From assembly GCF_022436485.1 (NCBI RefSeq), contig NZ_JAKUDO010000001.1, positions 1,922,001 to 1,986,000 of the forward strand: a DNA stretch of 64,000 bases, in the 5' to 3' direction. How positions within the stretch are numbered: the first letter of the stretch is position 1; the number at the start of each line of letters is the position of its first letter. Position numbers and translations under genes: made by a program. This DNA comes from Agrococcus sp. ARC_14. GTDB taxonomy: Bacteria; Actinomycetota; Actinomycetes; Actinomycetales; Microbacteriaceae. The notes below the pieces were generated by a model, which saw only the letters and a program-made list of their open reading frames with translations, was not told the origin of the DNA and made no database searches. Positions 5,304-64,000 of this stretch are shown in pieces.

Positions 5304-7090
5304 GAGTCGCGGCGCGGCTTGCGTGCCGGCCGATCGTCCTGCTCGCGCCGGTCGCTGCGCCCGCTGCGCTCGCTCCTGGAGCGCTCCGCACGGCCCGTGT
5401 CGGCGCGGATGTCGATCGGCACGCCCATGATCCGGGTCCTCGAGAGCTTCTCCAGCTGCGATCGATCGAGCTGGGGGAGCTCGACCAGCGTGAAGTCGAA
5501 GTTGATCTGGATCCTGCCGAAGTCGTCGCGGCCGAGGCCACCCTCGTTCGCGAGCGCACCGACGATCTGCCGGGGCTCGACGCCGCGGCGGCTGCCGACG
5601 TTGAGTCGGTAGGTCGTCGCGTCGGAGGGGCCACGTCGGGAGCGGCGATCACCGGACTCGCTGCCGCCGGCCCGCGTCGGGCGCTCCGCGCGGTCGCCAC
5701 GGTCCGCACGCGACGTCTGCAGCGCACGATCGGCCTTCTCATCCAGCAGCAGGGGAGTCTCGCCCTGCGCGACGACCGCGAGCGCTGCCGCGACGTCGTC
5801 CTGCGGCACGTCGTGGTGCGCGACGTAGTGCGCGACGATCTCGCGGAAGCGCTCGATGCGCTCGGTCTGGGTGAGCGCGGCGGTGATCGCGTCGTCGAAC
5901 CGCGTCAGCCGCGTGGAGTTCACCTGATCGGCGCTCGGCATCGGCATGACGGCGACGGTGCCGCGCGTCGCCTTCTCGATCGAGGTGAGCATCCGGCGCT
6001 CCCGCGCCGTCACGAAGCTGATCGCGTCGCCCGTGCGGCCCGCTCGACCGGTGCGGCCGATGCGGTGCGTGTACGACTCCGTGTCGATCGGCAGGTCGTA
6101 GTTGATGACGTGGCTGATGCGCTCGACGTCGAGCCCGCGCGCCGCGACATCGGTCGCCACGAGCACGTCGAGCTCCCCGTTGCGCAGCTGCTCGATCGTC
6201 TTCTCGCGCTGCGGCTGTGCCACGTCGCCCGAGATCGCGGCGGCGGCATAGCCGCGAGCCCGCAGGCGTTCGGCGACCGTCTCGGTCTCGTTGCGGGTGC
6301 GCGTGAACACGATCGCGGCCTCGAACGGCTCGACCTCGAGCACTCGTGTGAGCGCCTCGAGCTTCTGCGGGTACGAGACCATCAGCGCGCGCTGAGTGAT
6401 GCTCGGCGAGCTCGACCCGCCCGTGCGCACCGTGATCTCTGCGGGCTCGCGGAGATGCTTCTGCGAGATCGCGCGGATCTGCCGCGGCATCGTCGCGGAG
6501 AAGAGCGCCACCTGCTTCTCGGCGGGCGTCGACTCCAGGATCTGGTCGACGTCCTCGGCGAAGCCCATGCGCAGCATCTCGTCGGCCTCGTCGAGCACGA
6601 CGTGCGTGAGGCCGGAGAGGTCGAGCGTGCCCTTGGCGAGGTGATCCATGATGCGGCCCGGCGTGCCGACGACGACGTGGACGCCGCGGCGGAGCGCCGA
6701 CAGCTGCACGCCATAGGCCTGGCCGCCGTAGATCGGCAGCACGCTCACGCCGCCGAGGTGCGCGGCATAGCGCTCGAAGGCCTCGCACACCTGCACGGCC
6801 AGCTCGCGCGTCGGGGTCAGGACCAGAGCCTGCGGGGAGCGTCGCGATACGTCGACGGCTGCGAGCACCGGGAGCGCGAACGCTGCGGTCTTGCCCGTGC
6901 CGGTCTGCGCGAGGCCGATGAGGTCACGCCCGGCCAGCAGCAGCGGGATGGTCTCGGCCTGGATCGCAGAGGGCGTCTCGTAGCCGACGTCGTCGAGCGC
7001 GCGCATGATGCCCGGCGGTAGGCCGAGGCTCGCGAAGGTCGTCCGCTCGGGATCAGAGTCGGAGCCATGGGTTTGCTGCGCGTCGGTCAT
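5294..7090 (-). CDS. deaD: DEAD-box ATP-dependent RNA helicase (DeaD/CsdA type)
   Basis: A cytosolic RNA helicase used in ribosome assembly and RNA turnover, often cold-induced. The 598-residue protein carries the Q motif, motif I AQTGTGKT, PTRELAVQ, the DEAD box (VLDEADEM), SAT, and HRIGRTGRAGRTG. After a low-complexity Arg/Asp-rich linker comes a DbpA-type RNA-binding domain (TYRLNVGSRRGVEP to the FDFTLVELP region, about residues 490-550), then an Arg-rich basic tail. The start ATG has no SD but has TACCGT 7 bases upstream, so the mRNA is probably leaderless. Confidence 0.95.
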   Translation of the reverse strand: MTDAQQTHGSDSDPERTTFASLGLPPGIMRALDDVGYETPSAIQAETIPLLLAGRDLIGLAQTGTGKTAAFALPVLAAVDVSRRSPQALVLTPTRELAVQVCEAFERYAAHLGGVSVLPIYGGQAYGVQLSALRRGVHVVVGTPGRIMDHLAKGTLDLSGLTHVVLDEADEMLRMGFAEDVDQILESTPAEKQVALFSATMPRQIRAISQKHLREPAEITVRTGGSSSPSITQRALMVSYPQKLEALTRVLEVEPFEAAIVFTRTRNETETVAERLRARGYAAAAISGDVAQPQREKTIEQLRNGELDVLVATDVAARGLDVERISHVINYDLPIDTESYTHRIGRTGRAGRTGDAISFVTARERRMLTSIEKATRGTVAVMPMPSADQVNSTRLTRFDDAITAALTQTERIERFREIVAHYVAHHDVPQDDVAAALAVVAQGETPLLLDEKADRALQTSRADRGDRAERPTRAGGSESGDRRSRRGPSDATTYRLNVGSRRGVEPRQIVGALANEGGLGRDDFGRIQINFDFTLVELPQLDRSQLEKLSRTRIMGVPIDIRADTGRAERSRSERSGRSDRREQDDRPARKPRRDSER

Positions 7091-52764: not shown

Positions 52765-53883
52765 TCAGGGCATCGCGGGGCGCAGCGACAGGAACGCGGC
52801 GAGCCGCGCGATCTCGTCGTGCACGGCGTCGCGCAGCCGCGGGCTGGGCTCGGTGTCCCAGTGGATGCGGTGCACGAGCAGGGCGCCCGACTCGCGATCG
52901 GACTTCGCGTCGACCTTGCCGACGAGCAGGTCGCCGTCGAGGATCGGCAGCGCGAAGGCGCCCCACCGCCGCTTCGCCGCCGGCGTGTACTGCTCGAGCG
53001 CGTACTCGAAGCCCCACAGCTGCGTCATCCGCTTGCGGTCCGCGATCAGCCGGTCGAGCGGTGAGAGCAGCGCGACGCGGCCCGCGAAGCCCTCTGCGGT
53101 CGCGTCGGGTGCGAGCCGCCACTCGCCGCGCAGCATCGTGCCGTCGCTCGCCTCCACGCGCACCGATTCGCCCTCGTCGCCGAGGTGGGTCGGGCGGGTG
53201 ATGCCGTTCGAGCGAAGCCAGCGCTGGCGCCAGGTGCTCCAGGCGTCGTCGATGCGCGCCGGCTCCACCGGTGGCAGCACGCGCGCTGCGAGATCCCACA
53301 CCCGTGCGGTGCCGTGCCGCTCGGCGACCACCACCTCTCCGCGGATCTGCAGCAGCTCGAGCATCATCGCCACGTTGCGATCGGTGTTCCAGCCGCTCGA
53401 GGCGTAGGGCACGTCGGCGGCATCGTCGATCTCGGCCTGGGGGAGCGGTCCCTCCTCGCGCAGCTGCATGAGCACACGCGCGTGGAAGCCGCCGTTGGCG
53501 TCGAGCCACTCGCGCGCGCTGCTGTGGATCGACTCGGGGTCGCGCCCGATCGCGATCGTCCACGGCAGGTCGGTCATCGCCCGCAGCCCGATCGCGAATG
53601 CCTCCATCGGGTGCCGGTGCGGGCCGAGGTGCTCGAAGAGCGTCTGCTCGGTCTCGACGGCGCGACGCACGTCGTCGAAGGCGAGCGAAGGGATGCGCGT
53701 GTGCGCGATCTGCTCGGCCGACGGCGCGACGATCTCGGTGGGGTTGAGCGGCAGCAGCGTGAGCTGCTCGACCACCTCCGGCAGGTCATCCGCCTCGCGC
53801 TCGAGGCTCGACGCATCCAGCCACTGCGCGCGCACGGCGATGCGCCGTGCCTCCTCGATCGAGATCGTCCGAACCGCCGCCAT
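52765..53883 (-). CDS. YcaQ-like winged-helix protein (AlkX/HTH_42 family)
   Basis: A 372-residue protein of the YcaQ/AlkX family. E. coli YcaQ and Streptomyces AlkZ-type members are DNA glycosylases that unhook interstrand crosslinks, relying on a QxQ or QxD motif in a winged-helix context. I did not find a clear QxQ; the motif region reads QWLDASS and PPLDRLIADRKRMTQLWGFEYALEQYTPAAKRRWG, which is the conserved C-terminal block. It is therefore a family member with uncertain catalysis. It is transcribed away from a 20-bp repeat array. Confidence 0.75.
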   Translation of the reverse strand: MAAVRTISIEEARRIAVRAQWLDASSLEREADDLPEVVEQLTLLPLNPTEIVAPSAEQIAHTRIPSLAFDDVRRAVETEQTLFEHLGPHRHPMEAFAIGLRAMTDLPWTIAIGRDPESIHSSAREWLDANGGFHARVLMQLREEGPLPQAEIDDAADVPYASSGWNTDRNVAMMLELLQIRGEVVVAERHGTARVWDLAARVLPPVEPARIDDAWSTWRQRWLRSNGITRPTHLGDEGESVRVEASDGTMLRGEWRLAPDATAEGFAGRVALLSPLDRLIADRKRMTQLWGFEYALEQYTPAAKRRWGAFALPILDGDLLVGKVDAKSDRESGALLVHRIHWDTEPSPRLRDAVHDEIARLAAFLSLRPAMP

Positions 53884-53920
53884 GCCCCGACCCTAGCGAC
53901 GGCCACCCCGCCCCCGCCGA

Positions 53921-54168
53921 CGCCTCCCAGCATCGAGTGGCGCCTCCCAGCGTCGAGTGGCGCCTCCCAGCATCGAGTGGCGCCTCCCAGCATCGAGTGG
54001 CGCCTCCCAGCATCGAGTGGCGCCTCCCAGCATCGAGTGGCGCCTCCCAGCATCGAGTGGCGCCTCCCAGCATCGAGTGGCGCTTCCCAGCATCGAGTGG
54101 CGCCTCCTGGCACCCACTGGCTTTCCGGAAATCGAGTGGCGCCTCCTGGCACCCACTGGCTTTCCGGA
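53921..54168 (+). repeat. 20-bp tandem repeat array plus 39-bp repeats (left arm)
   Basis: Nine copies of a 20-bp unit, CGCCTCCCAGCATCGAGTGG, run head to tail from 53921 to 54100; units 2 and 9 have one substitution each. A related 39-bp unit then occurs at 54101-54139 and again, partly, at 54140-54168. The array is intergenic. It also opens a long frame on both strands that I do not consider coding. Confidence 0.95.
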
Positions 54169-54194
54169 CCGGCCCAGCACCTCAATCGAGCAGC

Positions 54195-54294
54195 AGGCGC
54201 CAATCGACCGCAGGAGGCGCCACTCGATCGCAGCAGGCGCCAATGGATCGGGGGAGTCGCCAATCGATGCGTGGGGGCGCCACTCGATCGCGCA
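54195..54294 (-). repeat. Degenerate 20-bp repeat array in inverted orientation (right arm)
   Basis: Five 20-bp units start at 54195, 54215, 54235, 54255 and 54275. The clearest, AGGCGCCACTCGATCGCAGC, shares its first 14 bases with the reverse complement of the left-arm unit. Both arms thus have the same period and core in opposite orientation, converging on about 54180. Confidence 0.85.
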
Positions 54295-56687: not shown

Positions 56688-56891
56688 ATGGCGATGACCT
56701 TGCGACTCTCTGACGCAGACGACGACGCCCTCGAAGCGCTCGCTGCGGCGACAAGGGTGAGCAAGCACGAAGCCGCACTGCGCGCGATCCGCGACGCAGC
56801 CGCGCGCGAGGGTCACAGCACAGCGGTCGCCGAGCTGTCGGCATCCGCACGTGAACGCTACGCCGATCTGCTGGATCGCCTCGGTCGATGA
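56688..56891 (+). CDS. Ribbon-helix-helix antitoxin of a Fic/Doc module
   Basis: A 67-residue protein with an N-terminal RHH/CopG-type DNA-binding fold (MTLRLSDADDDALEALAAATRVSKHEAALRAI) and a short C-terminal helix likely to clamp the toxin. It binds the palindrome just upstream. Its stop overlaps the toxin start by 4 bases (ATGA), the standard order for type II TA pairs. Doc toxins are often paired with Phd; here the partner is RHH. Confidence 0.85.
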   Translation: MAMTLRLSDADDDALEALAAATRVSKHEAALRAIRDAAAREGHSTAVAELSASARERYADLLDRLGR

Positions 56892-57253
56892 CCGAGCATC
56901 TGTCGCTCGACGACCTGCTGCAGCTCATCAGTGACTTGAGAGTCGGCCCCGTGCGAGACGTCGGCGCGCTGGACGCGGCTGCGTACCGACCGAGCGCGAC
57001 GATCTATGGCGTCGAGGCCTACGAGTCGCTGGATGCGAAAGCCGCGGCACTCATGGAGTCCATCGTCCGTGGGCATCCGTTGGTCGACGGCAACAAGCGA
57101 CTCGGGTGGCTCGCCGTCGTCGTGCTCTACGGCTTGAACGGCGTCGAACTCGACGCTGAGGATGACGTGGCGTTCGACCTCGTCGTGGGCCTCGCAGCCG
57201 GAGAGATCACGATCGATGCGCTCACAGCTGCACTGCGCGAAGTCCGCCGATAA
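56888..57253 (+). CDS. Doc-type Fic-domain toxin (death-on-curing family)
   Basis: A 121-residue Fic-fold protein. The motif HPLVDGNKRLG (63-73) is Doc-like: the Lys of GNKR replaces the Gly of canonical Fic (HxFx(D/E)GNGR). Known Doc proteins phosphorylate EF-Tu and so stop translation. The usual Phe is replaced by Leu (HPL), which may matter little. It is coupled to the antitoxin. Its stop codon lies inside a 28-bp palindrome. Confidence 0.85.
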   Translation: MTEHLSLDDLLQLISDLRVGPVRDVGALDAAAYRPSATIYGVEAYESLDAKAAALMESIVRGHPLVDGNKRLGWLAVVVLYGLNGVELDAEDDVAFDLVVGLAAGEITIDALTAALREVRR

Positions 57254-57270
57254 TGCACATTATGTCCGGA
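57243..57270. repeat. 28-bp interrupted palindrome at the toxin stop codon
   Basis: TCCG-nnn-ATAATG-CA-CATTAT-nnn-CGGA, two-fold symmetric apart from three mismatched pairs per arm, spanning the toxin stop TAA; GTCCGGAC follows inside its right side. It could be a terminator, operator or recombination core for the recombinase module just downstream. Confidence 0.7.
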
Positions 57271-57403
57271 CAAAAGAGGGATAGAGCGCATACGACCCTC
57301 CCCTTGAGCGGCAAGGCAAACTGCCGATGCAGTCGTCCACCCGGGTCTGACCGGGGCTTTTCCTGGCTGTCCAGCGCGGCCGGTGCGATAGGCGAGGTGC
57401 GGA

Positions 57404-57424
57404 ATGGTGCATCTTTTGCACCAT
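57404..57424. repeat. Inverted repeat ATGGTGCA-N5-TGCACCAT upstream of the recombinase
   Basis: Perfect 8-bp arms and a 5-base spacer. The same TGGTGCA/TGCACCA half-sites recur in the palindrome at 57472-57488, giving four half-sites in 85 bp. Confidence 0.75.
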
Positions 57425-57471
57425 CCCGAAACCCGTTCTGACCGGCAATTTTAGCCTGCTTGTTGCATTTT

Positions 57472-57488
57472 CTGCACCAATGGTGCAG
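57472..57488. repeat. 17-bp palindrome CTGCACCA-A-TGGTGCAG upstream of the recombinase
   Basis: Perfect 8-bp arms around one base, ending 11 bp before the GGAGG SD of the recombinase. A binding site for the XRE protein of the module is the simplest reading. The rest of the 57254-57509 gap holds a 21-bp imperfect direct repeat (57341-57361 and 57432-57452, 16 of 21 identical) and no coding signal. Confidence 0.7.
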
Positions 57489-57509
57489 ATTCTGTAACGG
57501 AGGTACGCC

Positions 57510-58622
57510 ATGGAGTCGACCGGCCGCATTCGGCTGTTTCGCTCTTCGCGTGCGTCCATCGACGCCGAGTCGCTGTGCACCGCGATGCTCGACGGATGGG
57601 CACACTCGCAGCTCGCTCAAGGGTTCCAGCAACGCACCATCGCCCGGCGCGCTCGGACAGTGCAGCGATTGATCGACTGGTCGGGCAAGTACCCGTGGCA
57701 ATGGACGCAGCTCGAGGCCGACGACTTCTTCGCCGAGCTGCGCGGCATCCACCACCTCGCGCCGTCGACGGTGCGAGCGTTCCAGACCGACATTGGCTTG
57801 CTTCTCGCCTATGCGGCTGATCCGACATACCCGTGGTCGGCGCATTGCACCGAATTGTTGGGAGAGACGTTCGTCCCGATCGCACCGCGCCGTATGGTCC
57901 ATCGGCAGGAAGGTCCCGAGAACCCGAGCAAGCGCCCCTTCGCCCTCGCTGAGCTTCAGTCGTTCTTCGACTTCGCCGACGACGAGGTGGAACGGATCCT
58001 GCGGTCTGGTAAGCGTGGCGGGCTGGCTGCGTACCGGGACGCGGTGGCGTTCAAAGTGATGTACGGATGGGGGCTGCGCCGCAGAGAGCTCTGCCACCTG
58101 AAGGTCGTCGACTTCTCACGAAATGTCCGCGCCCCTCGCTTCGGCGCGTGGGGGCTGCTCCGAGTCCGATACGGCAAGGCAATGCGCGGATCACCGTCGA
58201 AACAGCGCACCGTGCTCACCGTGTTCGATTGGGCCGCGGAGACAGTCGCGGACTGGGCGCAGCATGGACTCCCCCGCTGCGGAGACACCTCCGGCTGGCT
58301 CTTCCCCACCGAGCGCGACGCGGTCCTCGACGGCCAGTCGCTGCTGCGCCGCTTCCGCCGCTACGTCGATGCACTCGAGCTGCCCGAGGGCCTTGACCTG
58401 CATTCGTTGCGTCGCGCCTACGCAACCCATCTGCAGCTCGAGTGGGGCTTCGACACCTCATTTGCCAAGGAACAACTCGGCCACGAACACGCATCCACGA
58501 CCGCGATCTACACAATCGCGTCCCCCGACTACCGAGCACGCGAACTCGATCGCGTGCTCGGCGCGACCCTCGACCGCGCGACTGCCGTGCACCGTCGCAC
58601 TCAAGGAGGACTCCCATCATGA
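57510..58622 (+). CDS. Tyrosine recombinase with intact catalytic residues (first gene of the trio)
   Basis: A 370-residue tyrosine recombinase/integrase. The N-terminal SAM-like core-binding domain covers about 30-130. Catalytic residues are all visible: R190 (YGWGLRRREL), K223 (YGKAMRG), H298 and R301 (HSLRRAYATH), H325 (LGHEH) and nucleophile Y334 (AIYTIASPDYR). No N-terminal arm-binding domain is evident. ATG 57510 has GGAGG 6 bases upstream. The stop overlaps the XRE gene (ATGA), so the three genes are coupled. Its target site is unknown. Confidence 0.92.
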   Translation: MESTGRIRLFRSSRASIDAESLCTAMLDGWAHSQLAQGFQQRTIARRARTVQRLIDWSGKYPWQWTQLEADDFFAELRGIHHLAPSTVRAFQTDIGLLLAYAADPTYPWSAHCTELLGETFVPIAPRRMVHRQEGPENPSKRPFALAELQSFFDFADDEVERILRSGKRGGLAAYRDAVAFKVMYGWGLRRRELCHLKVVDFSRNVRAPRFGAWGLLRVRYGKAMRGSPSKQRTVLTVFDWAAETVADWAQHGLPRCGDTSGWLFPTERDAVLDGQSLLRRFRRYVDALELPEGLDLHSLRRAYATHLQLEWGFDTSFAKEQLGHEHASTTAIYTIASPDYRARELDRVLGATLDRATAVHRRTQGGLPS

Positions 58623-58957
58623 AGATTCAAGTGAGATACCAATGGCAGCTGCCGGTACTCATGGCGAAAGCCGGCTACCGGAAGACGACCGACCTTATAG
58701 AACCGCTCGCTGACCGCGGCATCGTCCTGTCCCGAACCCAGGTGTACCGGCTCACCCGAGACCCGGAACGAATCTCGCTGCAGTTGCTCGCAGCTCTCTG
58801 CGACATCTTCGACGTCGGCGTCGACGAACTGATCACGGTCGAGTCTCAGCGCCTGCGAGCAGTTCGGAAACGCCGCGTCAATGAGGAATCCCCTCCATTG
58901 CTGGAGTCCTACCGGCCGGTACGTGCGCGCATCGTCGCCGACCCCGATGACGCGTAG
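58619..58957 (+). CDS. Small XRE-type helix-turn-helix protein (second gene of the trio)
   Basis: A 112-residue protein. An HTH of the Cro/C1-like type covers about residues 10-75: LMAKAGYRKTTDLIEPLADRG, then LSRTQVYRLTRDPERISLQLLAALCDIFDVGVDELI. The C-terminal third is basic (RLRAVRKRRVNEES). It may repress the module through the upstream palindromes, or act as an accessory for recombination. The start ATG overlaps the recombinase stop; the stop overlaps the third gene by 11 bases. Confidence 0.8.
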   Translation: MKIQVRYQWQLPVLMAKAGYRKTTDLIEPLADRGIVLSRTQVYRLTRDPERISLQLLAALCDIFDVGVDELITVESQRLRAVRKRRVNEESPPLLESYRPVRARIVADPDDA

Positions 58958-60431
58958 GCGCGCCGGCCGACCTCGCGTCGGCGGCACCTTCCGCTGCCCC
59001 CGGTGCGGAGAAAGCGCTAAGCGCCATCGAGTGACGTGGCCAGAAGGTCCGATCTGCGGGTCTTGCTACGTCCGCGCGGTCGAAACCTTCGGCACTTGCG
59101 CCAGCTGCGCACATGACGGCATGGTGCCCGGCCTTGACGAGAACGGCGACCCCATCTGCCGCGTCTGTGCACGCATCGAGACCGATCTCGACTGTGTGAA
59201 ATGCGGTTTGGAGGCCGAGTTGATTCGAAACAAGAGATGCGCACGCTGCGTGCTCCGCGAGGACCTCAATGCAGTCCTCTCCCCCACCGATCCACCCGAC
59301 CTTCGCCTCAAGCGTCTCGTCAACGTCCTGTGCGCCGTTGACCGGCCTGCGAGCATCACTGTATGGATGCGCGGTCCGGCCGCAAAGGATCTACTGACAC
59401 GCATCGGTCACCGAGAGCTCGAACTCGACCACAGCGCATTCGACGCTCTCCCGCGCGCAAACTCCGTGGAGCACCTTCGTAGCCTCCTCGTCGCCCACGG
59501 CGTTCTCCCTGACCGCGGCAACGTCGACCTCGCCCGCTTCGATCTGTGGGTCGACCAACGCTTGCGCGACCTCGCGCCGCGTCCCCGCATCGTTGCGGCG
59601 CTCGAGCCGTTCGCCCGTTGGCACCACGCCCGCCGTCTGCACGATGACGCTGATCGCATCCGCAATCTCAACTACGCCACCCGCGCTGCGAAGCAGGAGA
59701 TCACCGAGGCCGGTAAATTGCTCGCTTGGCTCGACGAGACGCGTGACGTCGCGTTCACCGATGCGGAGCAACGCCACATTGACGAGTACCTCAGCGAGGG
59801 GCCCTCGACGCGGAAGAGTGCCCGCAACTTCATCAACTGGAACCACAAGATCGGCGCCACCGCGCTCGGCTCCGGGCGCAAGCGCGAGGCGGTGACGACC
59901 CCACTGGCGACCGACTCCGAACGCCTCCAGCAGCTTGCGCACCTGCTCGCCGAGACCGACGCTCCGCTCGTGGCTCGCGTCGTCGGCTTGCTCATGCTCC
60001 TCTTCGGCACGCCTATCGGCCGCCTCGTCCAGTTGCGACGTGATGCGGTCACCGAGACACCTGAGGGGATGCGCATCGACCTCGGCGGCACGCAGCCAGC
60101 GCTCGTGCCCGGCGCCATTTCCGAGGTCGTCTTCGAGATGGTCACCAGCGTGGCGCAATCGCGAACCGCCACCGTCGATGCCGGCTGGCTCTTCCCAGGC
60201 CGCCGGTCCGGACAGCACATCCACCCAGACAGCGTCCGCGGCCAACTACGCAGGCTCGGCGTGACTGTGCTCGCTGGGCGCAATGCCGCTCTCGCCGATC
60301 TGACCCAAGAGCTTCATCCGGCAGTCCTTGCCGACATCCTCGGTTACGGTGCCCCAACTCTCACGCGCCACGCGATCCGAAGCGGTCTGGCTTTCGCAAG
60401 CTACGCCGCGCAGCCACGGACTCCGCGGTAG
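58947..60431 (+). CDS. Zinc-ribbon protein with degenerate tyrosine recombinase fold (third gene of the trio)
   Basis: A 494-residue protein. The N-terminal 101 residues carry six CxxC knuckles (17/20, 37/40, 51/54, 71/74, 83/86, 98/101), enough for three zinc ribbons. The C-terminal part resembles a tyrosine recombinase: R359 in TPIGRLVQLRRDAV is the box I Arg, and GRNAALADLTQELHPAVLADILGY aligns with the box II region. The catalytic Lys is not evident, HxxR is replaced by AGRN, and where the nucleophile Tyr is expected there is His (TRHAIRSG, H475). Catalysis is unlikely; a structural or targeting role is inferred. Confidence 0.75.
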   Translation: MTRRRAGRPRVGGTFRCPRCGESAKRHRVTWPEGPICGSCYVRAVETFGTCASCAHDGMVPGLDENGDPICRVCARIETDLDCVKCGLEAELIRNKRCARCVLREDLNAVLSPTDPPDLRLKRLVNVLCAVDRPASITVWMRGPAAKDLLTRIGHRELELDHSAFDALPRANSVEHLRSLLVAHGVLPDRGNVDLARFDLWVDQRLRDLAPRPRIVAALEPFARWHHARRLHDDADRIRNLNYATRAAKQEITEAGKLLAWLDETRDVAFTDAEQRHIDEYLSEGPSTRKSARNFINWNHKIGATALGSGRKREAVTTPLATDSERLQQLAHLLAETDAPLVARVVGLLMLLFGTPIGRLVQLRRDAVTETPEGMRIDLGGTQPALVPGAISEVVFEMVTSVAQSRTATVDAGWLFPGRRSGQHIHPDSVRGQLRRLGVTVLAGRNAALADLTQELHPAVLADILGYGAPTLTRHAIRSGLAFASYAAQPRTPR

Positions 60432-60440
60432 GTGAGGGTG

Positions 60441-60709
60441 TCACTCCAGACCGAGTTCTTTGCCAACCCGCGCCAGATGTGCACCGCCGTCGCGCTGCGG
60501 CGTCGTCTTTCCCGCTTCCCAGAAGCTCCGACGGAGTAGCGCAGTGATGTCGGCCGTGGTGGTGCGCTGGAAGAAGCGGATCAAAGCGCGGGAACCAAAG
60601 CCGAGCGTGTCCTCCAACATGTTGGTCCATCGCTCAGGGTCAGTGCGCCCTCTGCCCATCGCTGCACGATCGTCGAGTCGACGGGGACGCCATACCCGTT
60701 GTCGCTCAC
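60441..60709 (-). pseudogene. Frameshifted small gene downstream of the resolvase
   Basis: The resolvase stop overlaps a GTG at 60709 that opens a frame reading DSTIVQRWAEGALT and stops after about 42 codons. A second frame from about 60660 to the stop at 60441 reads DPERWTNMLEDTLGFGSRALIRFFQRTTTADI in part, continuing to GKELGLE. Joining the frames at the repeated CTGA gives one sensible product of about 85-90 residues, consistent with a 4-base deletion. No homologue is recognised. It stops 9 bp from the trio's last gene. Confidence 0.5.
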
Positions 60710-61281
60710 TGCGCCGCCCTCGCTGCGCGTTCCAGCGCCCGATACACGGTTGAGCGTGCGACGCCGAACAACTCGGCGAGCTCGCCCGTCGTGTGTGAGC
60801 CCGCGCGTTGGAGGCTGACGAGGTGTGCCTCCTGCGTCGGTGAGAGCTTCGGCTTCTTCCCCCGCAACCGTCCCTTGGCGCGGGCGACCGCCATGCCCTC
60901 GCGCGTACGAGCGCGGATGAGATCAGCCTCGAACTCGGCGACCATCCCGAGCACGTTGAACAGGAGTCGGCCGACGGGGTCAGTCGGGTCGTAGAGGCTG
61001 CCGCCGAGGCTGAGGCTGACGCTCTTGGTTGTGAGCTCGTCGGCGATGTCGCGCGCATCCGGCAGCGATCGCGCGAGGCGGTCGAGCTTTGACACGACCA
61101 AGGTGTCGCCTTCGCGACATGCGGCGAGAGCTTCGCGAAGTCCAGGTCGGGCGCGGTTAGTTCCCGTCAGCCCGTGGTCCACGTGGATGTTCCGCTCGTC
61201 GACGCCGAGACCGATGAGTGCGTCACGCTGAGCCGTGAGGTCCTGCGCATTGGTTGAGACGCGCGCGTACCCGATGAGCAT
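60706..61281 (-). CDS. Serine recombinase (resolvase/invertase family)
   Basis: A 191-residue serine recombinase. The nucleophile S9 is in YARVSTNAQDLTAQRDAL, the active-site arginines are in VSKLDRLARS, and the E helix is followed by a C-terminal HTH (TTGELAELFGVARSTVYRAL, about residues 163-182). It is resolvase/Gin-like, not a large serine integrase. TACAGT lies 6 bases before the ATG with no SD. An inverted repeat lies upstream. No intact transposase accompanies it. Confidence 0.93.
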   Translation of the reverse strand: MLIGYARVSTNAQDLTAQRDALIGLGVDERNIHVDHGLTGTNRARPGLREALAACREGDTLVVSKLDRLARSLPDARDIADELTTKSVSLSLGGSLYDPTDPVGRLLFNVLGMVAEFEADLIRARTREGMAVARAKGRLRGKKPKLSPTQEAHLVSLQRAGSHTTGELAELFGVARSTVYRALERAARAAQ

Positions 61282-61287
61282 CCTGCG

Positions 61288-61293
61288 ACTGTA
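61288..61293 (-). promoter_or_regulatory. Likely -10 box for the leaderless resolvase gene
   Basis: TACAGT lies 6 bases before the ATG at 61281 on the minus strand. Confidence 0.45.
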
Positions 61294-61305
61294 GCGTTTG
61301 ACGCC

Positions 61306-61411
61306 CCCTCACCGGGCACTTCAGCGGGCGGGGCTTACGGGAATCACGGAGGTCAGCATCTACGCGCAGAAAGATCGACGCGCGAACTCTCCCTGGGTGT
61401 CCCGGTGAGGG
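61306..61411. repeat. Inverted repeat flanking the resolvase-unknown gene intergenic region
   Basis: CCCTCACCGGGCAC at 61306-61319 and GTGTCCCGGTGAGGG at 61397-61411 are inverted copies (11 identical bases plus CAC after a 1-base bulge), 77 bp apart. They could be res-type binding sites or ends of a small element. The rest of the 180-bp gap shows no gene. Confidence 0.55.
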
Positions 61412-61461
61412 ATCGCCTATCGGGCAGAAGGTGTCTGCTCGCCTCCTACCGATGAGCCTGG

Positions 61462-62160
61462 ATGACAGACTCAAGTGTGCTCGACGAATCTGGCCCGTGG
61501 CGTCAGTCGCTCTGGACCATGGCGGCGGCGCTGGAACGACGCATCAGCCTTCGCTCTTGGAGACCACGGACCGGCTACCTGGTCGAACGCGACATCGTCC
61601 TTGGAGCGTTCAGCATCCGGAAGCTCATCGAGTCCGAGAAGTGCTCGACGCTGTTGCCACACGAACGACTCTCCGCCGAAGTCCATCCACTCACGGGTCC
61701 GAGCCTCAATCCTTTGGATCGGTGGACTTTCTGGGAGTACTACTCCATGGAGCGGGGCCAGAAGCGCTCACTCACTGTTCGTGAGTTCTGCAACGTCGTC
61801 GTGCATTCATTCGTTCTCGACTTCGCCCCGGACAGCGAGCACGGCCCGGCCACCCTCTGGGTCGTCTCCGATCGCGAGAGGGACAAGCATCTCTACTCGA
61901 TAGCTCTCCGCGAGCTCGTGACCCTCTTCAGGCGGGTTGCGAGCGAGGATGTTGTCCGCATGCGCATCGTGCGTGAGCAAGGGCGACCTCCGAGCTCGTA
62001 CCGCCTGTCGCAACATGACCTCGTCGACGCAGGGTTGGCTGCGTACATCGAAGGAGCCCCGGGCGACTTCGACTGGGATGGGGACGAGCGTCGACTCGAG
62101 CTTGCGTTCCCCGCGATGCGCCGAAACAGTCCACCTCGGGGCTCTGCAAACCAGCGCTAG
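61462..62160 (+). CDS. Uncharacterised accessory protein
   Basis: A 232-residue soluble protein I cannot assign. It has no signal peptide or membrane segments. Notable stretches are VLGAFSIRKLIESEKCST (about residues 47-64), LNPLDRWTFWEYYSMERGQKRSLTVREFCNVVVHSF (about 83-118) and an acidic DWDGDERRLELAF end. The IRKLIESEKCS helix resembles helices in HEPN-like proteins, a weak hint only. The ATG at 61462 lacks a good SD. Its last codons abut an IS5 end, so the native C-terminus may have been altered. Confidence 0.6.
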   Translation: MTDSSVLDESGPWRQSLWTMAAALERRISLRSWRPRTGYLVERDIVLGAFSIRKLIESEKCSTLLPHERLSAEVHPLTGPSLNPLDRWTFWEYYSMERGQKRSLTVREFCNVVVHSFVLDFAPDSEHGPATLWVVSDRERDKHLYSIALRELVTLFRRVASEDVVRMRIVREQGRPPSSYRLSQHDLVDAGLAAYIEGAPGDFDWDGDERRLELAFPAMRRNSPPRGSANQR

Positions 62161-62424
62161 GGCGTGTCTGACAATGCCTTGGTCCAGATCGTGATGGCGT
62201 GGAGTACGGCGGCGGCGCGGTATGTGATGGCGAGTTTGTCGTAGCGGGTGGCGAGTCCGCGCCATTGCTTCAGCAGCGAGAAGCCGCGCTCGATGACGTT
62301 GCGGCCGCGGTAGTCGTCGGCGTCGAACGCGGGCGGCCGACCGCCGCGTGAGCCACGCCGCTTGCGGTGGCCGACCTGGTCCGCCGGCTCCGGGATCACC
62401 GCGGTGATGCCACGCCGTCGCAGC
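62157..62424 (-). pseudogene. IS5 family transposase, C-terminal fragment
   Basis: About 88 codons of the transposase C-terminus with the conserved YREK-like region (VIERGFSLLKQWRGLATRYDKLA). It ends at a stop overlapping the IS end and has no start of its own because the upstream part is lost to the IS21-type insertion. Confidence 0.8.
62160..62424 (-). mobile_element. IS5 family element, right end with truncated transposase
   Basis: The IS end GGGCGTGTCTGACAATGCC starts at 62160, after CTAG, a plausible target for the IS427/IS1031 group. The minus-strand frame reads the IS5-type transposase C-terminus, ITAVIPEPADQVG, then RNVIERGFSLLKQWRGLATRYDK and HAITIWTKALSDTP, containing the Glu of the DDE triad. 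It is cut at 62424 by an IS21-type end, and the N-terminal part of the transposase is missing. Confidence 0.85.
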
Positions 62425-62812
62425 TGTCAACGGTCAGTAGGAATTGCCCATTGGCGGCCAGCAGAACTGCCCGCTGGTGGCCATGAGAACTGCCCGTACG
62501 CGGCCAGGAGTTCTGCCCACCGGGTTGTGGTGGCCTTGGCCGCGTCGGGCTCGGCATCAGGTCATCGGTGTCACCCCGTGCCGGCGAGCGCTTGCGCGAG
62601 GCGGATGGAGTCGCCGCTGGTCTGCGCGCGTGGTGGAGGAGCCGGTCGACGGTCGCGGTGGCGAGGGTCTTGGGCATGAGCTCGTCGAAGCCGGCGGGGT
62701 GGAGGTTCGAGGAGATCGCGATGGAGCGTTTCTCGTAGGCGGCGTCGACGAGCCGGTAGAGGCCCTCCGCGGCGACGTCGCCGACGCCCAGGAGCCCGAT
62801 GTCGTCGACCTA
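62425..62812 (-). mobile_element. IS21 family element remnant (terminal repeats and istB fragment)
   Basis: TGTCAA at 62425-62430 looks like the IS21 terminal end. Four copies of a 23-bp subterminal repeat with core GAACTGCCC and GCGGCCA follow at 62441, 62464, 62487 and 62510 (the last partial), the multiple end repeats typical of IS21. The minus strand then encodes part of IstB. istA and most of istB are gone; the fragment ends near 62812. Confidence 0.8.
62571..62812 (-). pseudogene. istB-like helper ATPase, frameshifted C-terminal fragment
   Basis: The frame reads VDDIGLLGVGDVAAEGLYRLVDAAYEKRSIAISSNLHPAGFDELMPKTLATATVDRLLHHA in pieces, clear IstB C-terminus, then shifts: the expected QTSGDSIRLAQALAGTG is in another frame and ends at 62571. 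A small deletion in the CACGCGCAGACC region explains this. The ATPase Walker A part is missing. Confidence 0.8.
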
Positions 62813-63025
62813 TCCAGACATCCACATAGATCGACGTATGCCGAGGCCGTGACGATGCCGAGGATCCCGTTCCTGATCGGGCCAGTTCGCTGCGATGGCA
62901 GCGGTTGGACCAGCCTCCGCGAGCCCCGAACTCGGCATAGTCGCGGCGTGGGGAGGAGCCTCGTCGTGGGGGCACCGTGCTGGGCTTCCCCTCGTATCGT
63001 GGAGACATCGCTTTGAGGAGTTGCG
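62813..63025. other. Non-coding stretch between IS remnants
   Basis: 213 bp with no convincing reading frame. It probably contains the left end of the IS3-type element, as an SD (GAGGAG) and start of orfA follow at its right end. I could not place an inverted repeat with confidence. Confidence 0.5.
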
Positions 63026-63277
63026 ATGAACGGGAAGTATCAGAAGTTCGATGAGGACTTCAAGCAAGGCGCAGTGCGGGTGGTGACCGAGACCGGGAAG
63101 CCGATCGCGCAGGTGGCCAGGGATCTGGGTGTCAACGAGGGCACGCTGGGCAACTGGGTCGCGAAGTCATCTGTCGCGCTGAACCCCGGTACGTGGGGCG
63201 ATCCACCGCTGCCGCAGACCTCGCAGGCTTCGCCGCGCTGCGTGCGAGCATCGACTCGGCGAGGCTCAGGCGACTGA
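63026..63277 (+). pseudogene. IS3 family transposase OrfA, truncated
   Basis: The N-terminus MNGKYQKFDEDFKQGAVRVV and the HTH TGKPIAQVARDLGVNEGTLGNWVAK (about residues 1-47) are clear IS3 OrfA. After residue 47 the sequence (SSVALNPGTWGDPPLPQ and onward) is unrelated, so the element is broken there and no OrfB follows. ATG 63026 has GAGGAG 5 bases upstream. The unrelated tail is part of a different, possibly decayed sequence. Confidence 0.8.
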
Positions 63278-63358
63278 CGTGGGCGCTCGGGTGCTGATCA
63301 CCGCGATCGGCGCGGTTCCCGTGACCTTCCTCGTCACCGTCGCGGTCGCCATCTCTCC
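63171..63358 (+). other. Possible decayed remnant with hydrophobic tail
   Basis: One frame reads LAGFAALRASIDSARLRRLTWALG and stops; a second frame continues as VLITAIGAVPVTFLVTVAVAISP and stops at 63362. Joined by a 1-base deletion these would give a helical segment followed by a membrane helix, as in a small membrane protein's C-terminus. The evidence is weak. Confidence 0.25.
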
Positions 63359-64000
63359 CTAGGTTGCGATCCGCGCGGCAGCCGAGCCCGGCCGCGCGGC
63401 CTCCGACAGCAGCCGATGCAGCCGGTCCTCGAGCCCAGGCACCCGCAGATCGCGCACGAAGCCGTCATCGCGGGGGATGTCGCGGGTCACCGCGATCTCG
63501 CCGGCGATGCGCCCGGGCGCGCCCAGCACGAGCACGCGATCGGCGACCCTGATCGCCTCGCGGATGTCGTGCGTGATGAGCAGGATGCTCCACCGGTGCT
63601 CCGCCCAGATGCCCAGCAGCCAGCGCTGCAGCTCGTCGCGGGTGATCGCGTCGAGCGCTCCGAACGGCTCGTCGAGCAGCAGCACCGGCCGCCCCTGCAC
63701 GACGGTGCGCAAGAAGGAGACGCGCTGACGCATCCCTCCGGAGAGCTGCCGGGGATAGAGGCGCTCGGTCCCTTCCAGCCCGAAGGGCGCCAGCAGCTCG
63801 GATGCCTTCGCTCGAGCCTCGCCTCGCGAGAGCCCTGCGACCTCGAGACCGATCCCGGCATTGTCGAGGATGCGTCGCCACGGCAGGAGCACGTCGCGCT
63901 GCGGCATGAAGGCGAAGGGCCGAGAGCGGCCGTCGATCTGGGCGCCGTCGTAGCGGATCTCGCCCGCGTCGGCCTGCTGCGCGCCGGTCAGCAGCGACAG
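63359..64000 (-). CDS. ABC transporter ATPase of the nitrate/sulfonate/taurine (SsuB/TauB) type, partial
   Basis: The C-terminal 213 residues of an importer ATPase; the N-terminus with Walker A is outside the window. Visible: the Q-loop region AFMPQRDVLLPWRRILDN, signature LSGGMRQR, Walker B VLLLDEPFGALD and switch histidine LLITHDIREAI. The LPWRxxLDN and GMRQR features are typical of the SsuB/TauB/ThiZ-like subgroup that imports nitrate, sulfonates or thiamine precursors. The stop TAG overlaps a convergent stop in CTAG at 63359-63362. Confidence 0.9.
   Translation of the reverse strand: MSLLTGAQQADAGEIRYDGAQIDGRSRPFAFMPQRDVLLPWRRILDNAGIGLEVAGLSRGEARAKASELLAPFGLEGTERLYPRQLSGGMRQRVSFLRTVVQGRPVLLLDEPFGALDAITRDELQRWLLGIWAEHRWSILLITHDIREAIRVADRVLVLGAPGRIAGEIAVTRDIPRDDGFVRDLRVPGLEDRLHRLLSEAARPGSAAARIAT

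Follow-up and report, generated by a model that had tools for sequence, protein, structure and literature searches.

Intact dif core beside a tyrosine recombinase trio: a probable attachment edge for actinobacterial integrative elements

The closest described counterparts of the genes studied here are the 'XER modules' of Antarctic Arthrobacter plasmids, in which a XerD-XRE-XerC core accompanied by cargo was put forward as a putative novel integrative element (PMC6305408, 2018; the papers cited in this text were consulted in part, and what is said of them extends to those parts). Two 7.5-kb copies of the module, 99% identical, lie in different plasmids, and the modules are inserted between umuC and umuD; ends, attachment sites, dif and arrays do not feature in the portion of the description consulted. 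A three-gene core with cargo is also present in a stretch of 64,000 nucleotides from Agrococcus sp. ARC_14 (NZ_JAKUDO010000001.1, positions 1,922,001 to 1,986,000; hereafter the window), where it consists of intA, a small helix-turn-helix (HTH) gene and intB, and is here likened to the XER modules by description, without sequence comparison of the proteins. In contrast to the umuC/umuD position of these modules, the window trio is situated at the chromosomal dif site, although a distant trio on the Brevibacterium plasmid pAP13 (29.7% IntB identity) lies between a DUF4113 gene and umuD. An earlier note, made from the sequence alone, had proposed an unrecognised mobile element; since the trio resembles the published XER modules, it is not new in itself, while neither elements with their own recombinase at the dif edge nor dif-anchored arrays were reported among the matches listed in literature searches on dif, cassettes, pdif and actinobacterial integrative elements (titles and abstract starts, few subscription journals). 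We consider it probable that the trio is the recombination module of actinobacterial integrative elements whose attachment site is the outer margin of dif, either the chromosomal site or a dif-like one on a plasmid.

The three overlapping open frames reported previously were recovered, intA and the HTH gene overlapping by 4 bases and the HTH gene and intB by 11 (Table 1). IntA matched the Pfam family Phage_integrase (4.8e-20), with XerD as its nearest solved relative in a profile search (2e-19), and the full R-K-H-R-H-Y set claimed for it is present as R190, K223, H298, R301, H325 and Y334, invariant in all 32 aligned IntA relatives. The AlphaFold model of IntA was poor near the nucleophile (residues 326-342 below 50) and was not used. 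The second gene does encode a small HTH protein (HTH_26, 4.5e-10), and the near-palindromic repeats in the leader ahead of intA are candidate operator or recombinase arm sites.

Table 1. Features at and downstream of dif, in window coordinates
Feature	Position	Strand	Remarks
Chromosomal dif	57245-57266	+	CG CCGATAA-TGCACA-TTATGT C; ~245 bases upstream of intA
6-bp variable overlap, left junction	57268-57273	+	GGACAA; position inferred from relatives
Unit left end / intA leader	57274-57509	+	AAGAGGG start shared with G014; alignment breaks
Unit 1, part inside window	57274-64000	+	right-end 34-bp site at 68876-68909, 4.9 kb past window end
Three 19-bp near-palindromic repeats	57405-57423, 57461-57479, 57481-57499	+	ahead of intA
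intA, active-type tyrosine recombinase	57510-58622	+	370 aa; open frame, Pfam match
Small XRE/HTH gene	58619-58957	+	112 aa; open frame, Pfam match
intB, zinc-ribbon and degenerate tyrosine-recombinase fold	58947-60431	+	494 aa from ATG at 58947
Serine resolvase/invertase gene	60706-61281	-	82% identical DNA also behind the trio of G018
Gene inside unit 1	61462-62160	+	no Pfam match; NCBIfam match at chance level only
Fragments: IS5-type transposase gene and transposase gene with HTH_Tnp_1 domain	62157-63277		inside unit 1

IntB, for which a longer open frame begins at 58881, had no match in Pfam, NCBIfam or PHROG at E<=0.1. Its earlier description as a protein with six CxxC pairs and a recombinase fold lacking key residues was borne out by the counts across its relatives and by the predicted model. 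Six CxxC pairs are present in the sequence, and when pairs 2 to 6 were counted across 53 relatives the last two were invariant and pair 4 was found in 52, while pairs 2 and 3 were found in 38-39, the other 14 being gaps in relatives that are shorter at the N-terminus. As read by eye from the alignment, the box-II His is replaced by Gln or Leu in 49 of the 53 relatives and the LGH His by Tyr in 51, and the position of the nucleophile is occupied by His475 in all of them. Arg445 is likewise present throughout, and Tyr486 is kept in 51. The AlphaFold2 model (pLDDT 84, pTM 0.62) matched a phage integrase, XerA, an integron integrase, Cre and XerH in Foldseek (E 9.9e-6 to 1e-3), with 26 matches at E<=0.001 and TM-q values of 0.23-0.38 among the 50 matches listed.

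The trio was then followed through its relatives. Scoring of 7999 candidates gave 75 relatives of IntB; among 60 related genomes, 11 carry an IntB match (the window's own genome, G000, included), as do 236 of 72,556 plasmid records, chiefly from Streptomyces, Rhodococcus and Arthrobacter. A pattern search of a collection of species genomes returned 99 relatives, from which the best-matching 80 loci were taken forward; 79 of these bear actinobacterial names and one is from a metagenome bin labelled Acidobacteria. Upstream of intB and in the same order, intA is found in 77 of these 80 loci and the HTH gene in 79, which is more than chance, and six plasmids whose trios are distant (26-34% IntB identity) retain the gene order too. 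Behind two distant trios, on the Brevibacterium plasmid pAP13 and the Cryobacterium plasmid pA28BH2, lie ArsR together with transporter or P-type ATPase and lspA genes. One 7256-bp contig with the trio at one end is 100% identical in three assemblies (Mycolicibacterium llatzerense, Mycobacterium sp. MBM and a Pseudonocardiales metagenome-assembled genome), and is either a shared small replicon or contamination.

The dif site of the window, which lies outside the range covered by the earlier note and went unmentioned there, is identical over 22 bases to the dif of Frankia alni, CACGCCGATAATGCACATTATGTCAAGT (PMC3025954). The pattern CCGATAAN6TTATGT, at up to one mismatch, matched the whole G000 genome at this site alone, and a similar pattern gave one match in 22 of 24 Agrococcus genomes, two in one and none in one, against a single match of the reversed control across all 24. 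The trio itself is present in only two of 22 Agrococcus dif regions examined. Sixty-four of the 80 loci were testable for a site ahead of intA (13 are cut short upstream and 3 lack intA), and in 46 of these a dif-like site with up to two mismatches lies 261-311 bp before the gene; 1280 control stretches drawn at random from these loci gave none. When 42 site-bearing loci were submitted to a whole-genome search for the dif pattern, 41 were searchable: 26 are situated at the genome's only exact dif-like site, 10 at one of two or three, and 5 at imperfect sites. The 26 are best read as chromosomal dif, the others being second sites or plasmid-borne dif-like ones. On the other side of the window dif, the doc-like gene at 56888-57253 has its stop codon inside dif, as the TAA of CCGATAA; a ribbon-helix-helix gene (weak match) and this Fic/Doc-type toxin gene, together at 56688-57253, thus end exactly in dif.

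Alignments across dif between Agrococcus genomes mostly break just 3' of the site, 21 of the 25 listed ending at dif +20 to +35 and the other four extending to +57, +164, +207 and +239. At the left junction the right arm of dif, TTATGTCA or a variant, is followed by 6 variable bases and then by the element, and at the right junction a conserved right end is followed by 6 bases and then by the flank. The 6 junction bases vary between left, right and empty sites and between near-identical copies; of the 28 bases of dif, the outer three lie inside this overlap and therefore vary, and the dif core is untouched. The ends are fixed by the empty sites, tandem copy, circular record and repeated copies set out below, and they place insertion just outside the right arm of dif, with the core left intact. 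The chromosomal empty site of G022 reads dif.GATTCG.TTGGTTGC, and the occupied G014, whose array is divided over two contigs, reads dif.GATCGA.(units)...TATCC.AGTCCG.TTGGTTGC; the flanks of the two are 90% and 91% identical and both junctions fall inside the 6-bp interval. Empty plasmid sites (L147-L150) could similarly be set against occupied ones (L017, L018 and L152), the element-free plasmids with the same right-flank gene having the joined site TTATG(T/A)CA.A(G/C)TA(A/G)A.GTTGC in L148-L150 and CTTGT in L147.

Mobility was further indicated by copies in different places. Plasmid pA of Paenarthrobacter ureafaciens AT carries two tandem copies of the element, and a separate 4712-bp circular record, the one deposited record from which the circular form is known, is the same element and has no dif-like site at up to two mismatches. 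In YJN-5 two copies are 99.9% identical over 4744 bp and have unrelated flanks, and the 6-bp centre of the dif-like site differs between 99.9% identical copies; comparable pairs were found within Arthrobacter MA-N2 and, across strains or species, in Mycolicibacterium and in Gordonia/Rhodococcus. A comparison of the flanks of trio loci, set beforehand as the test of the proposed mobility, found fixed ends in variable locations and so favoured it. The part of the earlier note that spoke of a mobile element is supported by near-identical copies in different places, by the tandem pair with its circular record, and by the constant target and the empty sites. For its other suggestion, a programmed rearrangement system, no evidence was found in the copies and arrays described here, which are all that was brought to bear on it.

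In Agrococcus, dif stands at the start of an array in which units follow one another head to tail, each ending in a conserved 34-bp dif-like right-end site. In G000 these sites (CTCACGACCTNNGTTGATATCCCCGRTATCC.AGTNNN, 0-2 mismatches) occur at window coordinates 68876, 71051, 84336 and 86749, and a weaker fifth site lies 45.9 kb from dif. As the first of them is at 68876-68909, unit 1, which bears the trio, spans about 57274 to 68909 and extends beyond the window; within the window, neither a motif search nor an inverted match to the left end gave a convincing right end. A 22-base part of the site was searched for at up to three mismatches in the 24 whole Agrococcus genomes, giving 26 matches in nine genomes and none with the reversed control pattern. 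Twenty-four of the matches are on the dif contig and the dif strand, 0.8-45.9 kb 3' of dif, and the other two are on separate contigs of fragmented genomes. TATCC is found in 22 of the 25 right ends listed and TTATGTC in none. The units range from 0.8 to 18 kb in size.

Several units are common to different species. A mercuric-reductase-like unit of 2175-2178 bp is found in G000, G002 and G010 at 97.4-98.3% identity; the whole-unit identity of G000 and G002 is 97.4%, while G010 matches at 98.1-98.3% with its first ~75 bp differing, which suggests that left ends are exchangeable. An arsenic-resistance-like unit (5541/5542 bp, 99.7% identical) is the unit next to dif in G014 and the fifth unit in G023. 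The unit matches of G000/G002 and G014/G023 stop within 5 bp of the unit bounds, with the exception of 26 bp where the preceding right-end site is also shared. For the genome pairs that have these first two units in common, the identity of the flanks 5' of dif is 74-81%, and over all seven pairs measured it is 71-82%. A cadmium/cation-efflux unit is present in G000, G010, G014, G019 and G023 at 90-99.8%, partly with extra or missing stretches. A supposed swap in the order of two units between G014 and G023 was dropped, as only 62 bp of the next unit match. The Pfam domains found in units are Pyr_redox, SBF, LMWPc, Cad and Cation_efflux, and the unit adjoining dif in G023 encodes, at dif +604 to +2463, a SMODS/AGS_C nucleotidyltransferase and a SLATT_4 membrane protein, a pair that is a CBASS-type signature.

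A mechanism can be envisaged in which IntA, the sole member of the trio with a complete active site, would bind the right arm of dif and also the right end of the element, which imitates that arm (GATATCCCCGATATCC in Agrococcus), cut at the 6-bp overlap just outside the right arm, and join a circular unit there. Neither IntB nor the HTH protein would be catalytic; both would be DNA-binding or architectural partners, and the HTH protein may in addition exert regulation through the palindromes of the leader. With the core of dif preserved, dimer resolution by XerCD would remain possible, and so would further insertions beside dif. Each new unit would enter between dif and the last one, building a head-to-tail pile with the newest member adjoining dif and each unit closed by its right-end site. 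Units that lack recombinase genes (mercury-, cadmium- and arsenic-resistance-like genes, the CBASS-type pair) would be moved in trans. The sequences themselves show the target, the ends and the length of the overlap, a tandem pair and a circular record, empty sites, the array and units common to several species; the movement of units by IntA, movement in trans, the roles of the three proteins and the order of entry are what we infer from this arrangement.

Several observations weigh against this reading. Of the nine genomes that have right-end sites, six (G001, G002, G008, G010, G019 and G023) lack an IntB match at E<=0.001, and so movement of units there would need a trio that was lost or was supplied from outside. 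G023 keeps an HTH remnant beside dif; in G019 the end of a reading frame at dif +3817 to +4315 resembles the zinc-ribbon region of IntB by eye, perhaps a remnant of the trio just before a right-end site. Fifteen of the 24 Agrococcus genomes have no right-end site at up to three mismatches, yet their 3' sides differ too, and a simple repeated-word search of the 80 loci, which are from other genera, gave two low-complexity matches and no right-end arrays, so that the array is documented for Agrococcus. Eighteen of the 64 testable loci have no full dif-like site: the site is reversed in L142, reduced to the right arm in L086 and L097, and carries three mismatches in L096; six loci (L077, L084, L115, L120, L126 and L127) come after what seems by eye to be the right end of a different element, and the remaining eight are unexplained. 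On the six plasmids with distant trios a dif-like site is found at -232 in one, at -629 in another and nowhere near intA in four, and no such site at up to two mismatches is present at five loci of distant relatives in G003, G005, G024 and G048, part of which are on short contigs. Thus dif targeting is a trait of a subfamily. Compared with the tandem junction, that of the 4712-bp circle lacks 2 bp, and the record could be an assembly product. As for IntB, Tyr486 may act as an atypical nucleophile, the profiles of IntA and IntB gave no significant match to each other (probability 2.3%), and the recombinase fold is suggested by the Foldseek match of a predicted model.

The six array genomes without an IntB match would suit a different explanation, in which insertions arose independently at a permissive position close to the terminus and spread through homologous recombination at the ends they share, an SCC-like or island-like accretion with no active cassette system. 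Left ends common to units of different content (62 bp at 98%; 243 bp at 90.5%) and the insertion sequence genes inside some units would also fit. Homologous recombination, however, yields neither precise 6-bp dif junctions nor right-end sites that lie on one side and in one orientation 3' of dif, and we regard this explanation as unlikely.

Xer exchange takes place in the central 6 bp of dif. Units placed by the host XerC/XerD in the manner of IMEX, with right-end sites as altered dif copies and the trio as passenger or regulator, should therefore carry the chromosomal TTATGTC at their right junction, and none of the listed right ends does. The missing IntB matches would again be in keeping with such placement, as would the right-end sites, which resemble degenerate dif with GATA...TATC arms, like the altered dif of LME-1 and of the gonococcal island, GGI (PMC9765430). 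IMEX also resemble the present elements in their insertion at the chromosome dimer resolution site and in an altered dif-like far end; in contrast, they use the host Xer, whereas here homology mostly breaks outside the right arm and the family has its own recombinase with an invariant active site (PMC9765430 for IMEX). Recombination at the dif centre, leaving a dif arm at each end, is found neither in the right ends, where even TTATGT is absent, nor at the G014 and G022 junctions. An origin by Xer only was thus rejected on the junctions, and this explanation as a whole seems quite improbable. That the dif-like sequence is the left end of the element and not its target, as the near-constant distance from it to intA might suggest, is scarcely credible given a circular record without dif, centres that differ between 99.9% identical copies, and dif in 23 of 24 Agrococcus genomes with the trio in so few of the dif regions.

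With dif-edge insertion by the trio as the favoured reading, the elements can be compared with other systems. They have their own recombinase, a fixed attachment site, a circular form and empty sites, as expected of integrative elements with a tyrosine recombinase; we place them among these, with a way of working that is like that of an integron or an SCC array. SCC elements accrete serially at one attachment site, some without a recombinase, and in contrast have serine recombinases and a gene-end target. The Agrococcus array is like an integron in being a one-sided, one-orientation array of exchangeable units with a common closing site and an apparently fixed entry point. It differs in that the entry point is dif itself, the recombinase genes lie within a unit and not on a fixed platform, and two extra proteins are present; nor is IntA an IntI-type integrase, as it scored 35.8 bits against the 265-bit cut-off for integron integrases. 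We lean, by somewhat more than an even chance, towards a wider proposal, in which dif serves in actinobacteria as a general entry platform for exchangeable units with a dif-imitating end, moved by a complex of one active recombinase, an HTH protein and a dead recombinase independently of integrons and Xer.

The view of the earlier note that the trio fits neither RIT elements nor Tn554 stands, as gene order and sizes differ. RIT elements have three adjacent tyrosine recombinases (ritA-ritB-ritC), whereas the middle gene here encodes the HTH protein. The SE (IntA-Tfp-IntB-Srap), GInt and Tn554-related elements likewise encode at least two proteins of the recombinase fold (PMC10214605, PMC9345347, PMC5385486, PMC3414803), and SE and GInt further resemble the trio elements in one protein without a catalytic motif and in circular forms; 6-bp spacers or staggered cuts are described for both (PMC10214605, PMC5385486). 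In contrast to the trio, with three genes and one RKHRHY protein, SE and GInt have four core genes, and they and the Tn554-related elements have two RHRY recombinases. The authors on SE found no dif-like motif in its attB, in the part of their report consulted. In the Tn554-related layout a short and a long recombinase gene are adjacent, with TnpC last where present, and L165 and L167 differ from the trio in order and sizes. Actinobacterial Tn554-like pairs have been tabulated, FB24 plasmid 1 and pREL1 among them (PMC3414803); FB24 plasmid 1 has a pair of 400 and 803 aa, and the trio is on FB24 plasmid 2, which is absent from that table. The IntB profile had no match on the Tn554-like-bearing plasmids NC_008537 and NC_009426, and membership in the RIT or Tn554 groups was rejected on this ground together with gene order and sizes. 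On pREL1 (NC_007491) a weak IntB profile match (6.6e-11) has next to it an HTH gene and an intA-like frame that is broken, and this is a decayed trio and not evidence of kinship with Tn554-like elements; the IntA profile gave weak matches on all three plasmids (9e-5 to 1.3e-14). On the Novosphingobium plasmid pNL1 (L167), near 6145 on the minus strand, a dif-like TTGATAATATATATTATGT with two mismatches lies ~94 bp before the first recombinase gene of a Tn554-like pair, and elements of this class may use dif-like targets too.

Of the other contents of unit 1, the serine resolvase gene is either cargo or an older insertion, and ABC-transporter genes and a monooxygenase-like gene were named by eye. 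Elsewhere in the window, repeated peptide motifs in overlapping frame translations suggest short tandem repeats, some 20 bases long, at about 53850-54250.

As circular chromosomes resolved by Xer carry dif, insertion at its edge with the core spared would have a safe target across many actinobacteria. If the proposed role of the trio is true, it would help to account for the differences among Agrococcus species on the 3' side of dif, it would provide a route for the spread of metal-resistance and defence genes outside integrons and conjugative islands, and it would allow the working of a catalytically dead recombinase next to a live one to be tested.

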